From Archaeoglobi archaeon (GTDB lineage: Archaea; Halobacteriota; Archaeoglobi; Archaeoglobales; Archaeoglobaceae), in the NCBI GenBank assembly GCA_029259335.1, contig JAPDIY010000004.1:1-32053 (forward strand): a stretch of 32,053 bases of DNA, written 5' to 3'. Each line of letters opens with the position of its first letter. Position 1 is the stretch's first letter. The notes under the pieces were generated by a model. It was not told the DNA's origin and searched no databases. It saw nothing but the letters and a program-made list of their open reading frames with translations. Both the position numbers and the translations under genes were made by a program. Shown here in pieces: positions 2,196 to 25,560 of this stretch.

Positions 2196-2209
2196 TTTCA
2201 TTTTTGAAA
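2196..2209. promoter_or_regulatory. TTTCA-TTTT-TGAAA palindrome upstream of CheW-PAS fusion gene; candidate operator
   Basis: Read directly. A TATA-like AAATTATACT follows at 2241-2250. Confidence 0.55.
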
Positions 2210-2293
2210 TTTTCGAATAGTATTGTATCTCCAAGCAAAAAAATTATACTGTCTGAATCCTACAGTATACACCTCCAGAGAAGGGCGCGGAGT

Positions 2294-3856
2294 GTGAATA
2301 CCGTGACCGAAGTATTGATCTTCAATCTTAACGGCACAAAATGTGGGATTGAGGTACCTCAAATTAAAGAAATTATCAGGACTGAAAGAATAACGGTGAT
2401 TCCTAACACCCCGGATTTCATTGAAGGTGTAATCAATCTTAGAGGCCAAATAATCACAATAATCAATCTCAGGAAACGCCTTGGAATGGAGGCGAAAGGC
2501 ACTGACAGCAGTACATATACTGTAATTCTGGAGGGAAAATGGGGGACTGTGGGTTTGATCGTTGATGACGTTAGCGAAGTAGCGGAGATACCAGCAGAGG
2601 ATGTAACCGCTATACCAAGCATAGAACGTGAAAAGTTCTTCAAAGGTGTCGGGAAACTTCCTGATGAATCGCTGGTTCTCCTCATAGATCCAGAAAAAAT
2701 TTTGCATACCTGCTCACTTGATGCTTCCACAATTCTTAACCTACTGCATGATCCGATAATAATTCACGACGGTAAAAAAATTCTATTCGCCAATCAGAAA
2801 GCATTGGATTATTTCAGATCAGAAGAAGTAAGCGACATCATCGAACTCATTCATCCTGACTACCGACATTCGGCAAGAAACCGGATTGAAAGAGCGTTGA
2901 GGGGTGAGAATGTTGAGCCAGCTGAAGAGCTATTTGTCATGCCGGAAGGAAAGAAAATCTGGTTTGAGGTCAGTCACAACCCGATTCCCGGAGAGAACAT
3001 CATTATTACGAGTGTCTTTAGAGATGTCACCGACAAAAAACTGGTAGAACAAAAAAATACAGTCGATGTGATCGGAGTTGTGAATAGAAACGGAGCATTT
3101 GTATACGCTAATCCACAGATAACTGAGAGTCTCGGGGTTAGTCCAGTTGGAAAATTTCTTTCCGATGTACTTCCCTCAGATACTTCCAAACACGCGCTGC
3201 AGTCTATAAGAAATGCTATAAATGGAAACAAAATCGTTGTTTCCCAAGATGGTAACGAAGGGCGCTTTATCAAATACTACATTCCGCTTAACTCTGCAGA
3301 CGAAAAACATTGTCTAATTCTGTCTCAGGAGAAAACAGATTTCGTAAAACAGAGAATGCTACTCAGAAAGGCAATAGAATTAAATGAGATGATGGCAAAA
3401 GCAAAAAACCGAGAAGAACTGGTAAGAAAAACGGAAGAAATTCTTGCAAACTATAAGACGAGAATTTCCGATCATCCTGAAGACTTAAGTTTCGCCATAA
3501 ACCACAATGGCAGGAGATACGGTCACTTAAACGTAAAATCGGATCTGGATGATGACGAGAAGTATATGTTCAGGATACTTGTAAAAAACCTAGGGTTTGC
3601 GTTAAAATCTATTGAATATAAGGAAGAAAAGGAAAAACTGCTTGAAAAACTCTCGGAGAATATAGAAGTCATAGCATATCTCGTCGACAGGATAAGAAAC
3701 CCGCTTGCAGCAATAATGGGCTATGCTGAGTTCATCGAGAATAAAGAGTTGAAGCAAAAAATAGTTAGTCAGGTTGAGAGAGTTGTCGATATTATTTCCA
3801 AGCTTGATGTTGCTTGGATAAACTCAGAGGAGGTTTTGGAAAAAATTACAAATTAG
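2294..3856 (+). CDS. CheW - PAS - PAS - GAF-like - DHp-like (His replaced by Asp) fusion protein, no HATPase domain
   Basis: N-terminus TEVLIFNLNGTKCGIEVPQIKEIIRTERITVIPNTPDFIEGVINLRGQIITIINLRKRLGM is CheW; two PAS-like segments follow; C-terminus AYLVDRIRNPLAAIMGYAEFIENKEL...; ends at ITN* without N/G boxes. The listed ORF begins at TTG 2204; GTG 2294 or 2303 is more likely. Confidence 0.85.
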   Translation: MNTVTEVLIFNLNGTKCGIEVPQIKEIIRTERITVIPNTPDFIEGVINLRGQIITIINLRKRLGMEAKGTDSSTYTVILEGKWGTVGLIVDDVSEVAEIPAEDVTAIPSIEREKFFKGVGKLPDESLVLLIDPEKILHTCSLDASTILNLLHDPIIIHDGKKILFANQKALDYFRSEEVSDIIELIHPDYRHSARNRIERALRGENVEPAEELFVMPEGKKIWFEVSHNPIPGENIIITSVFRDVTDKKLVEQKNTVDVIGVVNRNGAFVYANPQITESLGVSPVGKFLSDVLPSDTSKHALQSIRNAINGNKIVVSQDGNEGRFIKYYIPLNSADEKHCLILSQEKTDFVKQRMLLRKAIELNEMMAKAKNREELVRKTEEILANYKTRISDHPEDLSFAINHNGRRYGHLNVKSDLDDDEKYMFRILVKNLGFALKSIEYKEEKEKLLEKLSENIEVIAYLVDRIRNPLAAIMGYAEFIENKELKQKIVSQVERVVDIISKLDVAWINSEEVLEKITN

Positions 3857-3877
3857 CGAAATCTGCAAATGATTGGG

Positions 3878-4354
3878 TCACGAAACTGCTGGCAACTCTT
3901 CCTCGCTCAGCACCTTCTCCAGGTCAATCAAAATCAGCAGGCCATCTGGCAGTTTTCCCACGCCTTTAAGGAACTTTGATTCTGTTCTTGAGGTTATTAT
4001 ACTCGGAAGCTCATCGATGTTTTCCTTCGAGAGGTACTTCACCTCCGTTACGGTGTCAACCATCATCCCTATGGTGTTTCCTTCGTTCTCAAACACGATA
4101 ATTCTCGTGTCGTTGTCTATTGGCTTTGGTTCCATTCCGAATCGCTTTCTCAGGTTTATTATTGTTGTAATTTGCCCACGGAGGTTTATCACTCCCTCTA
4201 TGAACTCAGGAGCATTGGGGATTGCTGTTATCTCCTCTGCTCTGATTATCTCTTTGACCTGAGAAGTTTCAACTCCGTATCTCTCGTTGCCGAGGTTGAA
4301 GATTACAACCTGTATCGTGGAGTTCTGAGAGTCCATCTGGAACATTAGCATCAC
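3878..4354 (-). CDS. cheW: CheW chemotaxis coupling protein
   Basis: STIQVVIFNLGNERYGVETSQVKEIIRAEEITAIPNAPEFIEGVINLRGQITTIINLRKRFG, canonical CheW. Confidence 0.96.
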   Translation of the reverse strand: MMLMFQMDSQNSTIQVVIFNLGNERYGVETSQVKEIIRAEEITAIPNAPEFIEGVINLRGQITTIINLRKRFGMEPKPIDNDTRIIVFENEGNTIGMMVDTVTEVKYLSKENIDELPSIITSRTESKFLKGVGKLPDGLLILIDLEKVLSEEELPAVS

Positions 4355-11573: not shown

Positions 11574-11939
11574 CTAACTCATTCCAGCAACCTTCTTCAG
11601 TTCCTCAATGACCTTCGGTGCTTGGAATGGTTTCACTATGTATCCCTTGGCCCCCAGCTTGATTGCCGTCTTCACCATCTGTTCCTGCCCAACAGCCGTA
11701 CACATCACCACTTTTGCTTGTGGATCCATCTTCTTTATCTCCTTCAACGCCTCTATTCCGTTCATCTCCGGCATAACGATATCCATTGTAACCACATCCG
11801 GCTTCAACTGTTTGTAAAGCTCCACTGCCTGCTTTCCGTTTTCCGCTTCCCCTACTATATCAAAACCTCCCGAAAACAAGATATTTCTCAAAAGCTTCCT
11901 CATAAAGGCCGTATCATCCACAATCAAAACTTTCGGCAT
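11574..11939 (-). CDS. cheY: CheY response regulator
   Basis: MPKVLIVDDTAFMRKLL...DVVTMDIVMPEMNGIEAL...KGYIVKPF stand-alone receiver. Confidence 0.97.
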   Translation of the reverse strand: MPKVLIVDDTAFMRKLLRNILFSGGFDIVGEAENGKQAVELYKQLKPDVVTMDIVMPEMNGIEALKEIKKMDPQAKVVMCTAVGQEQMVKTAIKLGAKGYIVKPFQAPKVIEELKKVAGMS

Positions 11940-16675: not shown

Positions 16676-16834
16676 ATGAAATCGATAGATGCCAGCTTCG
16701 CAGCCATTGCGGTATTTTCAGCGGTAATGCTGACCTACAGATGGCTGTCGCTGTACGGGAAAACAGATTACGTGATAAACTTTTATGCCGGCATGCTTGT
16801 TGCCGCCATAGCTTTGCTTATCTTACGAAGATAG
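16676..16834 (+). CDS. Putative 52-aa small membrane protein (two hydrophobic segments)
   Basis: ATG..TAG reading MKSIDASFAAIAVFSAVMLTYRWLSLYGKTDYVINFYAGMLVAAIALLILRR; absent from the supplied ORF track (apparently a 60-aa cutoff); T/A-rich CTTTTATCC about 25 bp upstream. Confidence 0.5.
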   Translation: MKSIDASFAAIAVFSAVMLTYRWLSLYGKTDYVINFYAGMLVAAIALLILRR

Positions 16835-17491
16835 GCACTCGTATATCTTCTTGGACTCGATTTCAGCATCCGATAGCTGATCGAGAACCTCTTTAATTTT
16901 CCTTGCGCTCGTCTTTATCATCTCAAACCCCTTTCTCGTATCGATTTCATCTGCAATCTCTAAAACACCGGTAATAACCGACAGAGGATTTCTGAGTCGA
17001 TCCGATAGAAATTGAAACTGTTCGAGGTTTTCTTTGAGTCTCAATAGCACTAATTCTCGCTCAATCCACATTTCGAGATTTCTAATCGCCCTCGAAAGAA
17101 CAAGTACCATATCTTTCAAGATCTGAATGATTTCTTCATCAGCCTCCTTCAGGAAGATGTACACCGAAGATCCTTCTGTGATGGGTAGAGTGAGAAGATA
17201 CTTGTGTTTCACACCTTTACAACCGCAAGCTTTCGCATTTACTATACTGAAAACTTTTGGATGATATTTTAAATAATTGCAGCCCATTACGTCTTCATCC
17301 ATGCGATAGTGTTCACCCGTTTTATCAGACACCACAACGGCTGTGCAGCTTTCGTTTTCAAATACTTGGTCACAGAAAAAATTTATCATCTTCTCTCGTT
17401 TGTCGAACATCCACACATTGCTCGAAAACGTAAACGCTGTAAAAAGTAAATCGTTCATTCGCTTTAAACTTTCGAGGTCACTGTACATCAT
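16823..17491 (-). CDS. GAF-like - DHp-like (His replaced by Asp) protein, no kinase domain
   Basis: ENLEQFQFLSDRLRNPLSVITGVLEIADEIDTRKGFEMIKTSARKIKEVLDQLSDAEIESKKIYECLSS*; start overlaps the stop of the upstream gene (17488/17491). Confidence 0.75.
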   Translation of the reverse strand: MMYSDLESLKRMNDLLFTAFTFSSNVWMFDKREKMINFFCDQVFENESCTAVVVSDKTGEHYRMDEDVMGCNYLKYHPKVFSIVNAKACGCKGVKHKYLLTLPITEGSSVYIFLKEADEEIIQILKDMVLVLSRAIRNLEMWIERELVLLRLKENLEQFQFLSDRLRNPLSVITGVLEIADEIDTRKGFEMIKTSARKIKEVLDQLSDAEIESKKIYECLSS

Positions 17492-18156
17492 CTCACTTCC
17501 GCCAGAGCCTTCAGTCGCTGAAGCATCTCCTGAAGCTCTTTTTCAAGCTCTTCTGCTGAGAACTTCTGTCCCTTGAGGTCTCTGAGCAAATCTATTTCTT
17601 CCTCCTCCTTTACTTCAACCTCTTTTGCTATACTCGAAATCAAATCGTCCTCCTCGTCAAAGTCCACTTCTTCCACATCCTCTTCCTCATCCTCCTCTTC
17701 ACCGCTGTCATCCGGTACAAGCTTTATCTCATTCTCCAAGTCATCAACGTCCACATCAAGGTCGGAATTTAGCTCTGGAAGTTCAGGAACGTCGGGGAGC
17801 TTCATTTCCTCGCTTTCAGTTTCTGGAGCTGCAGGAGTTAGAGTGTTTGCGGTCTCCATCTCCTCAAGCAGATTGTCGTCAACCTGAACGGTTTTGACAG
17901 CATCGTCCAGCGGAACAATCTTTTCCTCTACTCTGTTCTCCCCTACATCCTCTTTCTTGCTCACTCCTGTAGATACAACTTCTTCAAGTTTCTCATCCAC
18001 TTCCTTTAACTTCTCCTCCACCTCCTTTCTCCTCAAAAAACTGAGTTTCGGAAATTTCAGTCCATGGCTCTTCCCAATCTTGTCGTGGAGATAGGGAAGA
18101 GCCAGAACGATTGCAGCAAAAACAACACCAACCAGCATTTCTATCATTTTTACCAC
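17488..18156 (-). CDS. N-terminally membrane-anchored, highly acidic protein at end of archaellum operon; function unknown
   Basis: MIEMLVGVVFAAIVLALPYLH (TM), basic patch, coiled-coil-like RRKEVEEKLKEVDEKLEEVV, long D/E-rich region, C-terminal helix SAEELEKELQEMLQRLKAL. Confidence 0.75.
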   Translation of the reverse strand: MVKMIEMLVGVVFAAIVLALPYLHDKIGKSHGLKFPKLSFLRRKEVEEKLKEVDEKLEEVVSTGVSKKEDVGENRVEEKIVPLDDAVKTVQVDDNLLEEMETANTLTPAAPETESEEMKLPDVPELPELNSDLDVDVDDLENEIKLVPDDSGEEEDEEEDVEEVDFDEEDDLISSIAKEVEVKEEEEIDLLRDLKGQKFSAEELEKELQEMLQRLKALAEVR

Positions 18157-18160
18157 CTCC

Positions 18161-19795
18161 CTAAGTTTCTACAAACGACGGAAGAGAGAACGCCCACTTT
18201 ACAAGTGGCGGAACGATGAGCATTAGGATTCCCGAGATTAACAGAAATATCGCACCGTAATACAAGTAAAGGTACCTGCCACCTCCCTTAACGATGTTCG
18301 CCGATAGGGTATTGGCAATTGTCAGTGAGATAATTATCCACAATGCGTACTGGTTGAGTAAGTCAACGGGTATTCCCGAGAAAATTCCGATGTTCAGTCC
18401 CTGCAGCCCACCGGGAACCTTGCTGAACACCTCTCCAGTGCTAACTCCTCCAAGTTGTGTGGCAAATAGATTTGAGATGTACTCTGAGAATATAGCAAGT
18501 ATCTGAGTTATGAACAGTATAAGGGCAACCATGGCCATATGCAGCGGAATAATTAGATTCACGAATCCAGAAGAGATTAAGTCTCTCTTAAGTCTCAACA
18601 GAACCATTTCGAGGTTCGATGAGGAGACTATCTCACCGACAACATCAGCATCACCTCCCAGATCAGTGGCATCAACAAATATTGCCGTCAGCTTGCTGAT
18701 CAAATAGCTACCGCTCTCCCCAGTGAATTTCTCCCATGACAACCTTGCGTCAAGACCCATGGCAAGTCTTCTATAAAGCTGTAAAACAAGGTCTTTTAGC
18801 TCTCCAAGGTTTTTCTGATCAATTCTGCTCAGTGCTTCAGCTACGGAAACTCCTGCTCCGGCTTTTATAGCACCGAGACTCCTTATAAATGTTGTAAATG
18901 CTTCATCCCTCTTGCTAATCTTAGTGTCATCTATCCTGCCAAGAATGCCAAGCGGGAGCATCAGCGCTCCTGCAAGAACGAATCCTATTCCCCTGAAGTC
19001 TACACCATTCTGTATGTATATATCAAGTAAGCTGGGTATGAAAGATAGTAAAACCAAGGATGCGATTGCTGGAGGAAGTAAAAGCGGTGTAAGTCGGGAT
19101 ATTATCCTCTGTTCCTTGGATTTTATTTTCCCATCATGGACTTTTTTATCCTTCGGTACGGCTTTGAATAGCATGAATACACCAAACAAGCAGATCACGA
19201 AATTCCCGAATGCTGAGCTGATTAGTGTGGAGCTAGGATCGCCAACACTGTAGATAACCACAGACAACAGTACTACTACAGAAATAAGAGAGGCTGAGAC
19301 GAGCAGAGACGTATAAGCATCACTCCATTTCCTCAAACTTTCGAGGTTCCTCTCATACTCATCCTTTCTGACAGTCTTGAAGGTCTTCCATTCCCTTTCC
19401 AGAAATTCGCTATCGGGTTCTCCAGCAGCAATTGCGTTTGCCAACCTGTTGAAAAGTTTTTTCAGTCTTTCATGTTTTATCTTCTCTGCTATCAGCTCGC
19501 AAGCGGTTGCATAATCGTAATGCCATTTTTGGGTCAGATCCTTTACTTTTCTGAAATACTTGCTCGGAGCGTATTCCTCTTTTTCCGACACCATCTCGAA
19601 GATCTTGTCTCTACTCAGGTTTGCAGTGGAGAGAGAAGCCATGTAGGTCAGCATGAATAGCAGGTCATTGTCCATTAGAAGCTCTTTACCTGAACTCCTG
19701 ATAATGTCCAGAATGTGGCCTAAAGCTGGCAATTTTCCAAATGTAATCTTTGGTATTTTCGTCGTCTTGAACTCCATCTCTACACCACCAATCAA
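18161..19795 (-). CDS. arlJ: ArlJ (FlaJ) archaellum platform membrane protein
   Basis: T2SSF-like integral membrane protein directly downstream of arlI; multiple TM segments. Confidence 0.93.
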   Translation of the reverse strand: MIGGVEMEFKTTKIPKITFGKLPALGHILDIIRSSGKELLMDNDLLFMLTYMASLSTANLSRDKIFEMVSEKEEYAPSKYFRKVKDLTQKWHYDYATACELIAEKIKHERLKKLFNRLANAIAAGEPDSEFLEREWKTFKTVRKDEYERNLESLRKWSDAYTSLLVSASLISVVVLLSVVIYSVGDPSSTLISSAFGNFVICLFGVFMLFKAVPKDKKVHDGKIKSKEQRIISRLTPLLLPPAIASLVLLSFIPSLLDIYIQNGVDFRGIGFVLAGALMLPLGILGRIDDTKISKRDEAFTTFIRSLGAIKAGAGVSVAEALSRIDQKNLGELKDLVLQLYRRLAMGLDARLSWEKFTGESGSYLISKLTAIFVDATDLGGDADVVGEIVSSSNLEMVLLRLKRDLISSGFVNLIIPLHMAMVALILFITQILAIFSEYISNLFATQLGGVSTGEVFSKVPGGLQGLNIGIFSGIPVDLLNQYALWIIISLTIANTLSANIVKGGGRYLYLYYGAIFLLISGILMLIVPPLVKWAFSLPSFVET

Positions 19796-21666
19796 ACCTT
19801 TATATTAAGCAATCCGCTCTTGTAGATCTTGGCAATCGATCTGAAGAATTCATAGAAGTCCGTAACTCCCTGTTCGTGAAGCTTCTTCAAGATCTTCGCC
19901 CTCTTCTCAACTTCCTCGTAAATCAGCTTCTTCTTGTTTGGTGGGATTCCGAGTCTGGTCGCAATTTTCTGCTCAAGTATGTACGAGCTACCGTATCCCG
20001 TGAACACGTGAGTGTCTGTAACCGGATCCCACTGAAAAACCTCGATAAAGGACACTCCACCTTTTTGCGGGTTGTATCCAACTATTTCACTCACACTCAG
20101 AACTCTTCTGACGAGTTTTCCGTCTGGTCTTCTAACTGCGCTCTGAATAACAACGAAGTTCAGATTGTCAATAAAGGTCTTGGGAACACTTATTGGCTCA
20201 GTTGTCAACCTCTGAATGAGCTTCTCAACCGTTGCTGCGTGGAAAGTTGACATGACTGGGTGACCTGTCTGCATAGCCTGGAACGCGATGTTACCCTCAA
20301 CACCTCTGATCTCACCAACCAATATGTAGTTGGGTCTCTGCCTTAATGCAGCTTTAAGCAAATCGAACATTGTAACATCGCTCCCGCCACCCTCTCCAAG
20401 TGTCCCCCCTCTTGTACTACCTCTCGTCACCTCCCTTGTCCAGTTCTTGTGCGGAACCTGGAGTTCGGGTGTATCCTCAATGGACACGATCTTAGCCTCA
20501 GGTCGAATGAAGGCGGTAATGGCATTTAGCAAAGTCGTCTTACCACTTGCAGTTTCACCACAGATGAAACCGCTCATGCCTTCGCTGATCAGCAACCATA
20601 GATAGCCTGCGATCATGTAATCGAGAGAGCCGAATTCGATGAGTTGGAGGACGCTGAAAGGTGTTTCGTTGAACTTTCTGATCGTAAAGTTGCTCCCATT
20701 CTTGCTTATATCGTTACCAAAAACGATGTTAATTCTGCTGCCATCCGGGAGAGTTGCATCAACAATCGGATCTTTGTACGTTACGGGCTTTCCTATCCTC
20801 TCAGCCAGCCTTATTATAAACTTGTTCAGAGTCTCCTCATCCCTGAACTCAATAACACTCTTCAGTCCTTTGAAAATCTTGTGTTCGATGAATATCGGCC
20901 CGAGACCGCTACACGATATATCTTCAATGTACTTGTCCCTGATGTACGGCTCAAGAACGCCGAGACCAACCTTATCCCTTATCAGAGCATATTCTAAAGC
21001 CTTGTACTGCTCTGCCGTAACCTTAAGCTTATCTCTGAACCCATTCTTTCCGTTTTTGCTAAAAAACAGTCCGAGTTTAATCTTAGGCAGTAACTTCGCC
21101 TCTCCTTTTGTATCCTCAACAAATGATTCCTCCTCTCCATCAACAATTTCACAGACTTCTTTAAGGGCTTCTTTGAGAATCTTTTTCTTCTCTTCGTCAT
21201 CTTCAGGGTCGAAATCTATGTCCGTGATGTAGTCAACAAGCCTGATTTCAACTTCTTTTAGCAGTTCATCAACACCTGTAAGTAGAGTGGGCTCAACAGG
21301 AATATAAAAATTCCTGACATCATTTTTGTCTGGATAGACATGGATGTATATCTGCTCATCTGCGGGATATATCAGATTCGGCCTATCCAAATCTCCATGT
21401 TTTTTCCTATCCAGCTTTGGAACGAATTTGGGTATCCCAATCTTATCGAGGGGGAGAATATGGAGGTACTCCAGTAAGTGGAGGTTCTTCTCAACTTCCT
21501 TCTTCATCCTGTCCGGTAGTAATTTGTATATCCCGCAGTTGGCGAGGTTCGTATGATCGTGATCTTCCTCAAGTACCCTAGGCTTGAACGGGAAGTTAGC
21601 AACCACTCCCTGTTTCAATCCTCTTGGCTTGTAACTGAAATCTATTTTGCTGGTCTCGGTCACCAT
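19792..21666 (-). CDS. arlI: ArlI (FlaI) archaellum motor/assembly ATPase
   Basis: Walker A CGETASGKTTLLNAI, Walker B-type LRQRPNYILVGEIRG, HPVMSTFHAAT; overlaps arlJ by ATGA-type coupling. Confidence 0.97.
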   Translation of the reverse strand: MVTETSKIDFSYKPRGLKQGVVANFPFKPRVLEEDHDHTNLANCGIYKLLPDRMKKEVEKNLHLLEYLHILPLDKIGIPKFVPKLDRKKHGDLDRPNLIYPADEQIYIHVYPDKNDVRNFYIPVEPTLLTGVDELLKEVEIRLVDYITDIDFDPEDDEEKKKILKEALKEVCEIVDGEEESFVEDTKGEAKLLPKIKLGLFFSKNGKNGFRDKLKVTAEQYKALEYALIRDKVGLGVLEPYIRDKYIEDISCSGLGPIFIEHKIFKGLKSVIEFRDEETLNKFIIRLAERIGKPVTYKDPIVDATLPDGSRINIVFGNDISKNGSNFTIRKFNETPFSVLQLIEFGSLDYMIAGYLWLLISEGMSGFICGETASGKTTLLNAITAFIRPEAKIVSIEDTPELQVPHKNWTREVTRGSTRGGTLGEGGGSDVTMFDLLKAALRQRPNYILVGEIRGVEGNIAFQAMQTGHPVMSTFHAATVEKLIQRLTTEPISVPKTFIDNLNFVVIQSAVRRPDGKLVRRVLSVSEIVGYNPQKGGVSFIEVFQWDPVTDTHVFTGYGSSYILEQKIATRLGIPPNKKKLIYEEVEKRAKILKKLHEQGVTDFYEFFRSIAKIYKSGLLNIKV

Positions 21667-21743
21667 ATTCTCCCCCTCCCTTGATGATTATTACAATTGT
21701 TATTACTATAGACTACTATGCAACTCTCATTTGATATACTTTT

Positions 21744-22478
21744 CTACGCCCTTGCCTCCGAAATCGGAATTATCTTCAGTCCAAATCCAGGATGGACTTC
21801 AAAGCTGACTATATTTCCTGTAGTCTTCTTTGCACCTCTTATTTTCGAAACTTCAAGCACGCTGACATACCTATCACCAACCTGCTCCTTCCTGAGGAAT
21901 AGATGACAGTCACAAGCAGATCGAATTCTGACTAGGGTGTCCTCTTTGAACGCATGCTGATGTAAGGTTATGAGAATCGTTTTGCCTGCATCACACAAGT
22001 TCTTCAGCCTCGTCAAGAATTCGAGGACGTCATCCTCTGTGGAATAAGTTGTGAACATCGTCAGCGAGTCAATTATTGCAATGTTTTCCCTAATTGTCTT
22101 TATGTGGTTTGCAACGAGGTTAAGAATGCTCCTCATCTGATCCGTGCTCCAGTCAATTCCTTCAAGATGTACTGGAAATATCCTCAGATAACCCCACGCA
22201 TAGAAATCAGACACATCGAGACTCAGAGACTCCATCTGCCTCAACAGACTTTTTATCGTGTTCTCTGTAGTGTAGTATGCAATGTTGTGCCCGCTCATCA
22301 GCCCACCATAAACGAACTGCTGACACAGCACGCTCTTCCCCGTATCATTCTCACCTTCTATGAGTGTCAGCGATCCAAGAGGTATTCCACCACCCAGCCT
22401 CTTATCTATCTCACCGTTTCCGCTTGAAAGGATATTTCTCCTCTTTTCTTCCTCAAGATCCGCCAAACTCTCAACCAT
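21744..22478 (-). CDS. arlH: ArlH (FlaH) KaiC-like archaellum protein
   Basis: LTLIEGENDTGKSVLCQQFVYG Walker A; NIAIIDSLTMFT Walker B-like. Confidence 0.96.
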   Translation of the reverse strand: MVESLADLEEEKRRNILSSGNGEIDKRLGGGIPLGSLTLIEGENDTGKSVLCQQFVYGGLMSGHNIAYYTTENTIKSLLRQMESLSLDVSDFYAWGYLRIFPVHLEGIDWSTDQMRSILNLVANHIKTIRENIAIIDSLTMFTTYSTEDDVLEFLTRLKNLCDAGKTILITLHQHAFKEDTLVRIRSACDCHLFLRKEQVGDRYVSVLEVSKIRGAKKTTGNIVSFEVHPGFGLKIIPISEARA

Positions 22479-22490
22479 CTAAACCACCTC

Positions 22491-22985
22491 CTACGGAATT
22501 CTGAAATCGTAACTATCGCAAACCGCATTAGGAGTGCAGAGGAGCAGAACGTAGCTCCCATTTGCGAGCGGCTGCGTTAGGGGCGAATCCAGTTTTGCAA
22601 GTTCGTGTGGGTCGAAAATGCCGGGGTTTATCAGTTCGTTAACGATTGTATAGCTCGTCGAGTTCAGGTAAAACGCTACCATGTCTCCGCTGTCAGTTTT
22701 GCCATACAGAATCGTATCGAACTCTGTGAAGTCGGGATATCTTTCAGCACCCGTATTCTTGAAATACGCTGTTATCGTGTTTGTAGAGTTGTCATACGTA
22801 ACGTTGATAATTGTTACATCGCTCCGCAGCTTTTTCACAGCCATCTGCACAGCTTCTTTATAGCTCTCAATTGAATACTCTGCTATCATAGTACTGCCAG
22901 CAAGGAAAGTATAAGCGACTGCCACGATGATTGCTGTGACCATTATCGCCGCCACCACTGTATCGAAGCCCATGAACATCACCAC
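22491..22985 (-). CDS. arlG: ArlG (FlaG) archaellum stator protein
   Basis: N-terminal TM helix GFDTVVAAIMVTAIIVAVAYTFLAGS, archaellin-like fold, position between arlF and arlH. Confidence 0.9.
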   Translation of the reverse strand: MVMFMGFDTVVAAIMVTAIIVAVAYTFLAGSTMIAEYSIESYKEAVQMAVKKLRSDVTIINVTYDNSTNTITAYFKNTGAERYPDFTEFDTILYGKTDSGDMVAFYLNSTSYTIVNELINPGIFDPHELAKLDSPLTQPLANGSYVLLLCTPNAVCDSYDFRIP

Positions 22986-23467
22986 GAGAAGTAATCACTT
23001 GCCTTTACACCGTTATACAGCACAAACGTCAGCAAATACTCGTCCTGTGGCATCTGAGTGGCCTCAATGTTCTCTACAGCAAACTTCAGCGTTTCCCCTT
23101 TCTCCCAGTAGTTGTCCCCGTCACCGTTCTCTATGGTAAACGTTACTTCAGGGTCCGAAGGTGTGAAATGCAGATACGCCGAATTTGATGTGAAGAATAT
23201 GTCGCTCATCCTTATTAGATCAGTGTCCAGCCGCGTACTTCCTGTATTCTTTACCCAGAAGTAGACGTTGACTGTAGTCGCATCGTAAGTGACTTTGATG
23301 AAGATTATTTCCATATCGGTCTCAACTTTTTCGTTTAGGTTTCCAGAAACCGAAGAGTAAGAGTGAGCGAGATCTTTAACTGTGGGCAAAATAACCATAA
23401 TAGCCGCAGAGACGGCTACTATTGTGGCTATCATCAATATTGATGTTGATATCACCTCCCTTGCCAT
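22979..23467 (-). CDS. arlF: ArlF (FlaF) archaellum stator protein
   Basis: N-terminal TM ISTSILMIATIVAVSAAIMVILPTVKDLAHSYSS; overlaps arlG. Confidence 0.9.
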   Translation of the reverse strand: MAREVISTSILMIATIVAVSAAIMVILPTVKDLAHSYSSVSGNLNEKVETDMEIIFIKVTYDATTVNVYFWVKNTGSTRLDTDLIRMSDIFFTSNSAYLHFTPSDPEVTFTIENGDGDNYWEKGETLKFAVENIEATQMPQDEYLLTFVLYNGVKASDYFSW

Positions 23468-23499
23468 TGTTATACCTCAACGCAGCCGCTCTCACAGCC

Positions 23500-24285
23500 T
23501 CACAGCCTCTTTTCGAGTATCAAGTTCAGCAGCTTGGAATCCATGCTCGTGTCCTGTGGGTTCATGAGCTTGTGCAGTCTGTAGAGTTCGAGCAGCATGT
23601 CCTCAAAGCCATCGTTCAGTGCTATCAGCTCTGCCAGCTTTGCGACAAAATCCTTGGCTTCCTCAGTTATGTATCCCGCAGCCTCAAACACTTCCAGCAT
23701 TATCTTCAGTGAGTCAATGCTGTATTTCTCAAGCATACCCTTAACCCACTCCATTAGATTGAACAGCGTAACAATGTCGTATTTAGTGAACATTTCTGGT
23801 TTCTGCCACCTCTCTTCGACTCCGGGCTTGGGTTCTGCCCTCTCCTTTCTTTCTATCTCATAAACCCCAACCTGAGGCTGCAAGCTATCACCCTCTTCTT
23901 TCGGCATCACCTCCCCAATACTTTCTTCACATCTGGCAACCTCATCTTCGGGAACATCCTCCAAACTTTCTTCCTCTTCCTTCTCCTCACCCTCTCCCTC
24001 TTCCTCCAAACTTTTCTCAGGCTCGGGGATCGCAGCAGGAATAACCTGTATCTGCGGCTGGGGTTGTTGCATCGTTGACAGTGCTCCTTCAGCAAGATTT
24101 TGCAAATTCTGGAACGGATTTTCGAGGTTGTTAAGCGTCTCCCTCAGATCCAACAGCAATCTCTTTACAGATCCTTTCAAAACGTCAAGTTCTTTCTCCA
24201 GCTTGTCGATTCTGCTCTCCGGGGTGTCAGCTTCAGCGCTCGCAAGAATCTCATCAATCGCTGCCTGATCAACAGTGTCCTGCAT
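23500..24285 (-). CDS. arlCDE: ArlC/D/E fusion protein of the archaellum (switch complex)
   Basis: N-terminal coiled coil IDKLEKELDVLKGSVKRLLLDLRETLNNLENPFQ (ArlC-like), Glu-rich linker, C-terminal ArlD/E domain TKYDIVTLFNLMEWVKGMLEKYSIDSLKIMLEVFEAAGYITEEAKDFV. Confidence 0.85.
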   Translation of the reverse strand: MQDTVDQAAIDEILASAEADTPESRIDKLEKELDVLKGSVKRLLLDLRETLNNLENPFQNLQNLAEGALSTMQQPQPQIQVIPAAIPEPEKSLEEEGEGEEKEEEESLEDVPEDEVARCEESIGEVMPKEEGDSLQPQVGVYEIERKERAEPKPGVEERWQKPEMFTKYDIVTLFNLMEWVKGMLEKYSIDSLKIMLEVFEAAGYITEEAKDFVAKLAELIALNDGFEDMLLELYRLHKLMNPQDTSMDSKLLNLILEKRL

Positions 24286-24323
24286 TCTATCACCTTTAAA
24301 AAATTTAAAAAATTGTTAAAAAT

Positions 24324-24941
24324 TTACTTGAGCAATACCATCACATCGTCGATGCTTGGCGGAGCCTTGAGCTCGATCGGGTAGCTTGCACCGACTGGTG
24401 GCTTGACCTCAATTATGAAGTCATCGTTGGGATCGATGCTGAATCCGGCATCTTTCAGATAGACTGTGACCTCAGCTTTCTCAAACTCTTCGAGATAGTT
24501 GTCCGGATTGCTACCCTGCAGACTATAAACCCAGTTGACGTAGTACTCAGTGGCCTTATTAAGACCTGTAGTATTCTTCTCATACGTTAGTTCCTTGTAA
24601 GATCCATCTGCCGGAACAAGCACTGTAATTATTGTCTTGTTCAGGTCAATTGGCTGTCCACCAGCGGCAAGCTGGAGCGTAAAGGTAACATTCTCGATCT
24701 GGTTCGAGCTTGTATCTCCAGTAGCAACAATGCTGCCAACAAGCTCCATGCTGCTCGTCGCCTGCTTGACACCAGTGTGCACAGTCTCCTGACCCTTCTG
24801 GGTGGCGAAGAAACCGGCGCCGAGCAGCACGTAGCTGAACACTGCCGCAACTGTAACGAACGATATCAGCACGATCGCAGCTTCAAGGCCTGTGAAACCT
24901 TTCATATCCTTACCAAATCTTGGCCACTTCATGGGCATCAC
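24324..24941 (-). CDS. arlB: Archaellin (second copy)
   Basis: Class III signal peptide KDMKG|FTGLEAAIVLISFVTVAAVFSYVLLGAGFFATQK. Confidence 0.95.
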   Translation of the reverse strand: MMPMKWPRFGKDMKGFTGLEAAIVLISFVTVAAVFSYVLLGAGFFATQKGQETVHTGVKQATSSMELVGSIVATGDTSSNQIENVTFTLQLAAGGQPIDLNKTIITVLVPADGSYKELTYEKNTTGLNKATEYYVNWVYSLQGSNPDNYLEEFEKAEVTVYLKDAGFSIDPNDDFIIEVKPPVGASYPIELKAPPSIDDVMVLLK

Positions 24942-24942
24942 C

Positions 24943-25560
24943 TCAGACGTATGTCAGATTCGTAAAGCTTGGCGGCAGCGTCTTGGTTATTGCTAGTGGA
25001 GCACCGATTGGTGGTCTAACTTCAATTGTTATGACATCGTTCGGACTCATGTTGCCTATACCCGACCACGCTGAATTTGTCACGTCGATAACGATTTTGT
25101 ACTTCTCGTTTGGCTCAACCACATTGTCTCCATCCCCAATCGTGTTCACATACCACCACGGGCAGTTAGTTCCAGGTGTACAGGACGTATTGTAGAACAG
25201 CTGCTTGTATCCTTCATCTGTAGTTATTGCTATCGACGTCTTGTTGAGGTCCACTGGAGAGCCGCCGGCAGTCTGCGTCACGTAGAAGTACACCATACCT
25301 ACCTGGCCGTTTGAACCCGTTGAACCACCTGCGGCAGTACTACAATTCAAATAGATGTACTGCCCATCCAGCGTCAGGCTGCTCGAAGCCTGCTTTACAC
25401 CAGTATCAACGACTTTCTTTGACTTCTGTGTGGTGTAGAAACCTGCTCCGAGCATGACGTAGCTGAAAACCGCTGCGACCACTACGAACGCTATCAACAC
25501 TATCGCCGCTTCAAGCCCTGTAAATCCCTTCTCATTTTTCAAAATTTTCCCTCTCCTCAT
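24943..25560 (-). CDS. arlB: Archaellin (first copy, promoter-proximal)
   Basis: Class III signal peptide KNEKG|FTGLEAAIVLIAFVVVAAVFSYVMLGAGFYTTQK. Confidence 0.95.
   Translation of the reverse strand: MRRGKILKNEKGFTGLEAAIVLIAFVVVAAVFSYVMLGAGFYTTQKSKKVVDTGVKQASSSLTLDGQYIYLNCSTAAGGSTGSNGQVGMVYFYVTQTAGGSPVDLNKTSIAITTDEGYKQLFYNTSCTPGTNCPWWYVNTIGDGDNVVEPNEKYKIVIDVTNSAWSGIGNMSPNDVITIEVRPPIGAPLAITKTLPPSFTNLTYV

Follow-up and report, generated by a model that had tools for sequence, protein, structure and literature searches.

The closest described relatives of the protein reported here are the nonenzymatic "HisKA, no HATPase" proteins of Archaeoglobi and Methanomicrobia, for which phosphatase activity was suggested and the histidine was described as conserved (Galperin et al. 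2018; PMC5847659). In HisKA proteins, kinase but not phosphatase activity depends on the acidic residue at position +1 from the histidine, and phosphatase but not kinase activity on the threonine or asparagine at +4 (Willett and Kirby 2012; PMC3510030). The bifunctional kinases CrdS, HK853, and EnvZ have a Pfam HisKA-type DHp domain with asparagine at +4 (PMC3510030). In CheZ and in HisKA_3 kinases such as NarX, the acid and amide of a DxxxQ motif place the water that attacks the phospho-aspartate of the receiver (PMC3510030, PMC5231405). For switch-off at the archaeal motor, only a CheC could be suggested (Schlesner et al.; PMC2666748); CheC and FliY are CheY-P phosphatases, and FliY works at the motor (discussed for archaea in PMC2666748).

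We analyzed a window of 32,053 nt (the whole stretch of archaeal DNA presented above) that holds both a che cluster and an archaellum (arl) operon, and focused on one gene on the arl side, hereafter the target (Table 1). Its ORF is a real CDS, intact from ATG to stop, with an SD-like GGAAGTGAG ahead of the ATG and a product ending in FLSDRLRNPLSVITGVLEIADEI...ESKKIYECLSS. The overlap of its start with the stop of the upstream gene is kept across orthologous loci and is therefore not due to chance. A small convergent ORF (16676–16834, + strand) encoding a 52-aa hydrophobic protein (MKSIDASFAAIAVFSAVMLTYRWL...) overlaps the end of the target gene. A search of the target sequence against solved structures found nothing, and a literature search under the A. 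fulgidus-style names AF1046–AF1048 returned unrelated papers only.

Table 1. Window features discussed in the text
Feature	Position	Strand	Basis or conservation
CheW-PAS-PAS-pseudo-DHp fusion, the window's other D-type protein (D codon 3686–3688)	2204–3856	+	Pfam
CheY, proposed receiver partner	11574–11939	−	Response_reg, 117 bits; putative partnership
Target CDS, GAF + D-type pseudo-DHp, 222 aa	16823–17491	−	Pfam, synteny, AlphaFold
Pseudo-DHp helical hairpin (helices 119–178 and 185–221)	16829–17137	−	Pfam HisKA, AlphaFold
Codon of N168 (+4), HisKA phosphatase-activity position	16988–16990	−	Invariant in 9/9 orthologs and 47/47 D-type; function from PMC3510030
Codon of D164, replacing the phospho-accepting His	17000–17002	−	Invariant in 9/9 orthologs and 47/47 D-type HisKA matches
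GAF-fold sensor part (residues about 32–116; cysteines C71, C88, C90)	17144–17398	−	AlphaFold, Foldseek
ATGA stop/start overlap (4 nt) of target and preceding arl-side gene	17488–17491	−	Seen in 7/8 orthologous loci, 1 nt in the remaining locus
Partner gene, membrane-anchored acidic coiled-coil protein	17488–18156	−	Present wherever a sampled Archaeoglobaceae genome has a close ArlJ
Archaellum genes arlJ, arlI, arlH, arlF, arlG, arlCDE-like, arlB2, arlB1	18161–25560	−	ArlJ by profile, others by homology and order

The C-terminal part of the target (residues 157–208) matches Pfam HisKA with 28.5 bits against a curated cut-off of 26.9, and the HisKA alignment places D164 at the phospho-acceptor position. 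The AlphaFold monomer (mean pLDDT 90.6) consists of an alpha/beta domain followed by the two-helix hairpin expected of HisKA, with pLDDT mostly above 90 in the hairpin. The chain stops 59 aa past D164, and Pfam found no HATPase_c in it; with nothing beyond the second helix, the target lacks an ATPase domain. A histidine kinase needs a phospho-accepting histidine, and here that residue is aspartate. The first-pass annotation had thus been right about a genuine ORF overlapping the preceding gene by 4 nt (now backed by translation and the HisKA match) and about a kinase-less DHp with D for H; its description of the N-terminal part as GAF-like holds for the fold, with GAF domains as the top Foldseek matches to the model (E from 4e-4 to 1e-2), but not for Pfam, in which no GAF model matched at E up to 10.

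D164 and N168 lie at helix angles of 0 and 40 degrees, with the hydrophobic moment at 211; the D-type aspartate and the asparagine at +4, one turn apart, sit on helix 1 opposite its hydrophobic face. This location and their invariance point to a role in catalysis or in contact with a partner. In the GAF part, three clustered cysteines (residues 71–90, window 17222–17281, − strand) follow a CxC or CxxC pattern that is found in most orthologs, is missing in G034, and takes the form CxxC...H in many paralogs; the domain is possibly a metal or redox sensor.

Earlier counts of the aspartate were partly circular, as the seed had been chosen by motif, and we therefore took a census of all Pfam HisKA matches in seven related genomes (n = 82), sorted by the residue at the histidine position. 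The Pfam model is His-based, so the census is not biased toward the aspartate (D-type) form. The division was clean: the 47 D-type matches all lacked an ATPase domain and ended within 90 aa, whereas 34 of the 35 H-type matches had one and the last was frameshifted (Fisher p = 3e-22 for the D/H split). That exception, in the window's own genome (G000:C6:8383-8956), carries a frameshift between HisKA and HATPase_c with the ATPase domain in the next frame, and is a pseudogene or an assembly error. An acid stood at +1 in 3/47 D-type against 35/35 H-type matches, and asparagine at +4 in 47/47 against 34/35; the motifs read D-x-[IL]-[RK]-N-P and RHD-[IVLM]-x-N, respectively. Judged by their sequences, the two classes differ exactly at the residues known to matter. 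Histidine occupied +1 in 12/47 D-type matches, which may explain the "conserved His" of the earlier description. The census pattern recurred in a larger, partly motif-selected collection (135 distinct D-type domains of Archaeoglobi and Methanomicrobiales) obtained by a genome-wide pattern scan with an 11-row alignment; about half of these had histidine at +1.

D-type genes are numerous, with nine or ten in each of two fully counted Archaeoglobus-type genomes. With 47 of the 82 HisKA matches being D-type, the first-pass suggestion of a DRxRNPL form common across Archaeoglobi is supported. An apparent combination of a D-type DHp with an ATPase domain in one protein was dropped. Six methanogen D-type proteins extend about 220 aa past the motif, of which three, when scanned, carried RyR and not HATPase_c, with the remaining three similar in sequence; these proteins, from Methanoregula/Methanomicrobiales relatives (L231, L238, L225, L251, L241, L285), have PAS and a D-type DHp ahead of that region. 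Elsewhere, in G005 (L048), a D-type gene without a CheW domain (2212–3501, − strand) lies beside cheR, divergent from a gene (3502–4353, + strand) for a PAS/GAF-like protein that ends in a more degenerate DHp-like helix (NELREQL).

The target could also be half of a split kinase, with a separate ATPase-domain protein phosphorylating D164 or a nearby residue, as in the precedent of CheA3/CheA4 of Rhodobacter sphaeroides (PMC3591291). The HATPase_c matches in G000 and G005 were RHDxxN-type or other His-bearing kinases, CheA, GyrB-like proteins, and a type II topoisomerase subunit; the absence of any stand-alone HATPase_c protein from these two genomes, together with the loss of the histidine and the low share of D-type domains with a +1 histidine, makes a split kinase hardly credible.

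Compared with the described systems, the target has the layout of the Galperin class, in which N-terminal PAS/GAF sensors precede a C-terminal HisKA without an ATPase domain in the same lineages, and it belongs to that class. It differs in that PMC5847659 describes a conserved histidine, whereas every D-type match in our census has aspartate; neither the archaellum-operon place nor the DxxxN reading was found in the passages of that paper that were consulted. Like CrdS, HK853, and EnvZ, the target has a Pfam HisKA domain with asparagine at +4, but it has no histidine, no +1 acid, and no ATPase domain. The resemblance to the DxxxQ of CheZ and NarX lies in an acid and an amide four residues apart on an exposed helix of a four-helix bundle that acts on a receiver (PMC3510030), both the bundle and the action on a receiver being predicted for the target. 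The target has N for Q, belongs to a different family, and has a predicted phosphatase activity only. Since the HisKA mechanism needs only the T/N (Willett and Kirby 2012), the likeness to CheZ is one of motif spacing and not of homology.

We then asked how firmly the target is tied to the archaellum genes. Archaeoglobaceae are heat-loving archaea. The window's ArlJ matched its profile with 771 bits (cut-off 570). Full-length target orthologs were found in eight other Archaeoglobaceae genomes from three genera (37%–63% identity), all with an intact reading frame and all in the order arlJ, acidic membrane protein, target (with one extra gene after arlJ in G004). In G034 this order is retained with arl on contig C22 and the che genes elsewhere, on C2, so the target is linked to the archaellum genes and not merely to a merged che–arl cluster. 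The tie to the archaellum operon is conserved, and the proposed coupling to arl genes thereby extends to eight more genomes. A decayed copy in G003 (L053 7960–8546) has frameshifts, lacks the DHp part, and adjoins a largely deleted receptor gene; this assembly is incomplete and the decay may be an artifact.

Four genomes (G021, G025, G028, G030) have a close ArlJ and the acidic membrane protein without the target gene, and the target is therefore not essential. In G021, the acidic protein is followed by a true histidine kinase (HisKA plus HATPase_c) and then by a stand-alone receiver (L100 7630–9399 and 9418–9771), which suggests that two-component parts were recruited to that position. In G028, the position is taken by an unrelated 205-aa protein with no Pfam match (L099 9594–10211, − strand), and a gene for a DUF4352 protein separates arlJ from that of the acidic protein. 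The acidic protein itself has an N-terminal hydrophobic helix, a coiled coil, and a conserved C-terminal LDLLRDLKGQKF motif, and in G030 its gene is placed between arlH and arlI. It looks like an uncharacterized archaellum-operon protein of Archaeoglobi, possibly a component analogous to ArlX. Its AlphaFold model was poor (pLDDT 62, pTM 0.19), and no fold claim is based on it.

The first-pass annotation had paired the target with the window's other D-type protein, the CheW fusion, proposing that their C-termini heterodimerize and so bridge the receptor array and the motor. Both proteins do have a D-type DHp and both genes lie within one che/arl region, and the shared end point that had been noted is real (59 aa past the aspartate in the target, 56 aa in the fusion). 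However, the family tree, of which we use only the deep split as the alignment has few columns, falls into two deep clades (branch 100/97) with the two proteins on opposite sides. The fusion is only the sixth best paralog of the target within its own genome, and CheW was found in 1/88 family members scanned, whereas the target is conserved without a CheW fusion. Most D-type genes are unlinked to che/arl, and the one beside cheR in G005 has no CheW. Opposite clades and a rare fusion imply that the target and the CheW fusion do not make up a matched pair, and we consider the heterodimer bridge very improbable. Homologs that were common as unlinked orphans had been named in advance as refuting the link. 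This describes the family, since the D-type module is not special to che/arl and most homologs are orphans, but not the target's orthologous group, in which the arl link is conserved.

A different partner is suggested by gene neighborhoods. We counted 13 cases of a receiver gene no more than 500 nt away from a D-type DHp region (0.5 expected), 10 of them with both on the same strand; these pairs are not independent, as some receiver-linked members are mutual orthologs. Overlaps of about 20 nt between receiver and D-type sensor genes occur in several cases, and in two family members the receiver is fused. The partner prediction is strongest for the operon pairs at L105, L108, and L137. Two neighboring receivers that we tested were CheY-like, with haloarchaeal CheY as the best NCBIfam match, below its cut-off. 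Among the Archaeoglobaceae genomes searched for receivers, every one with D-type genes had at least one. Every receiver-linked member that was found falls in the sister clade (D-x-I-R-N-P) and none in the target's own clade (D-R-L-R-N-P), and the target's partner can accordingly only be proposed.

This clade difference is also what would be expected if the pseudo-DHp merely dimerizes or transmits, with the GAF domain signaling through direct contact with an arl protein (ArlCDE, ArlH, or the acidic membrane protein) and no receiver involved. DHp domains are dimerization domains, and the target gene is tightly coupled with that of the acidic protein, which occurs wherever the target does. Pure dimerization leaves unexplained why +1 is free when the exposed polar D and N(+4) rank with the most invariant positions, and we regard this alternative as rather unlikely. 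In another arrangement, the target could use its DHp helices to form heterodimers with true histidine kinases and silence them, much as RetS silences GacS. Kinase-less D-type proteins and RHDxxN kinases are present together in all seven genomes, and one operon (L108) encodes a D-type sensor, a receiver, and a kinase in succession. The two DHp types are nevertheless distinct in sequence, and the only kinase near the target gene is CheA, which has a different dimer domain; silencing of this kind seems improbable.

Our best reading, possible but tentative, is that the target is a homodimeric, GAF-gated DHp sensor, made with the motor, that docks a receiver and probably dephosphorylates CheY-P. 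For the D-type DHp as such, we favor a role in receiver docking, probably with phosphatase activity. The protein would be a cytoplasmic sensor produced together with the archaellum motor, in which the GAF domain would control the four-helix bundle of a putative homodimer. The bundle would neither accept nor transfer phosphate and would still dock a phosphorylated receiver, whose phospho-aspartate would probably be hydrolyzed by D164 and N168 (D-x-x-x-N), which are exposed on the helix at a distance of one turn. We take CheY-P as the likely substrate from the target's place in the motor operon; the result would be a sensor-gated off-switch acting near the motor. The charge of an aspartate at the histidine site could repel a phosphorylated receiver, counting against a phosphatase. 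CheC and FliY, which share the job proposed for the target (removal of CheY-P), have a fold unrelated to DHp and a different motif; CheC is encoded separately within the window's che cluster, which counts against our reading. A broader version, in which the DHp of an entire archaeal sensor family became a receiver phosphatase devoted to that task and gated by the sensor (His to Asp, the resulting DxxxN being convergent with CheZ), with a member encoded in the archaellum operon acting on CheY-P at the motor, appears doubtful to us.

The class as such was already described; what appears to be new is the strictness of the aspartate, its reading as part of a DxxxN motif, the way the ATPase domain cleanly separates the two types, and a location in the archaellum operon that is conserved. 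The Asp/His split turns the loose annotation "HisKA, no HATPase" into a defined family, and a conserved motor-operon sensor with a DHp of phosphatase type and not of kinase type is a testable candidate for CheY-P switch-off at the archaeal motor.
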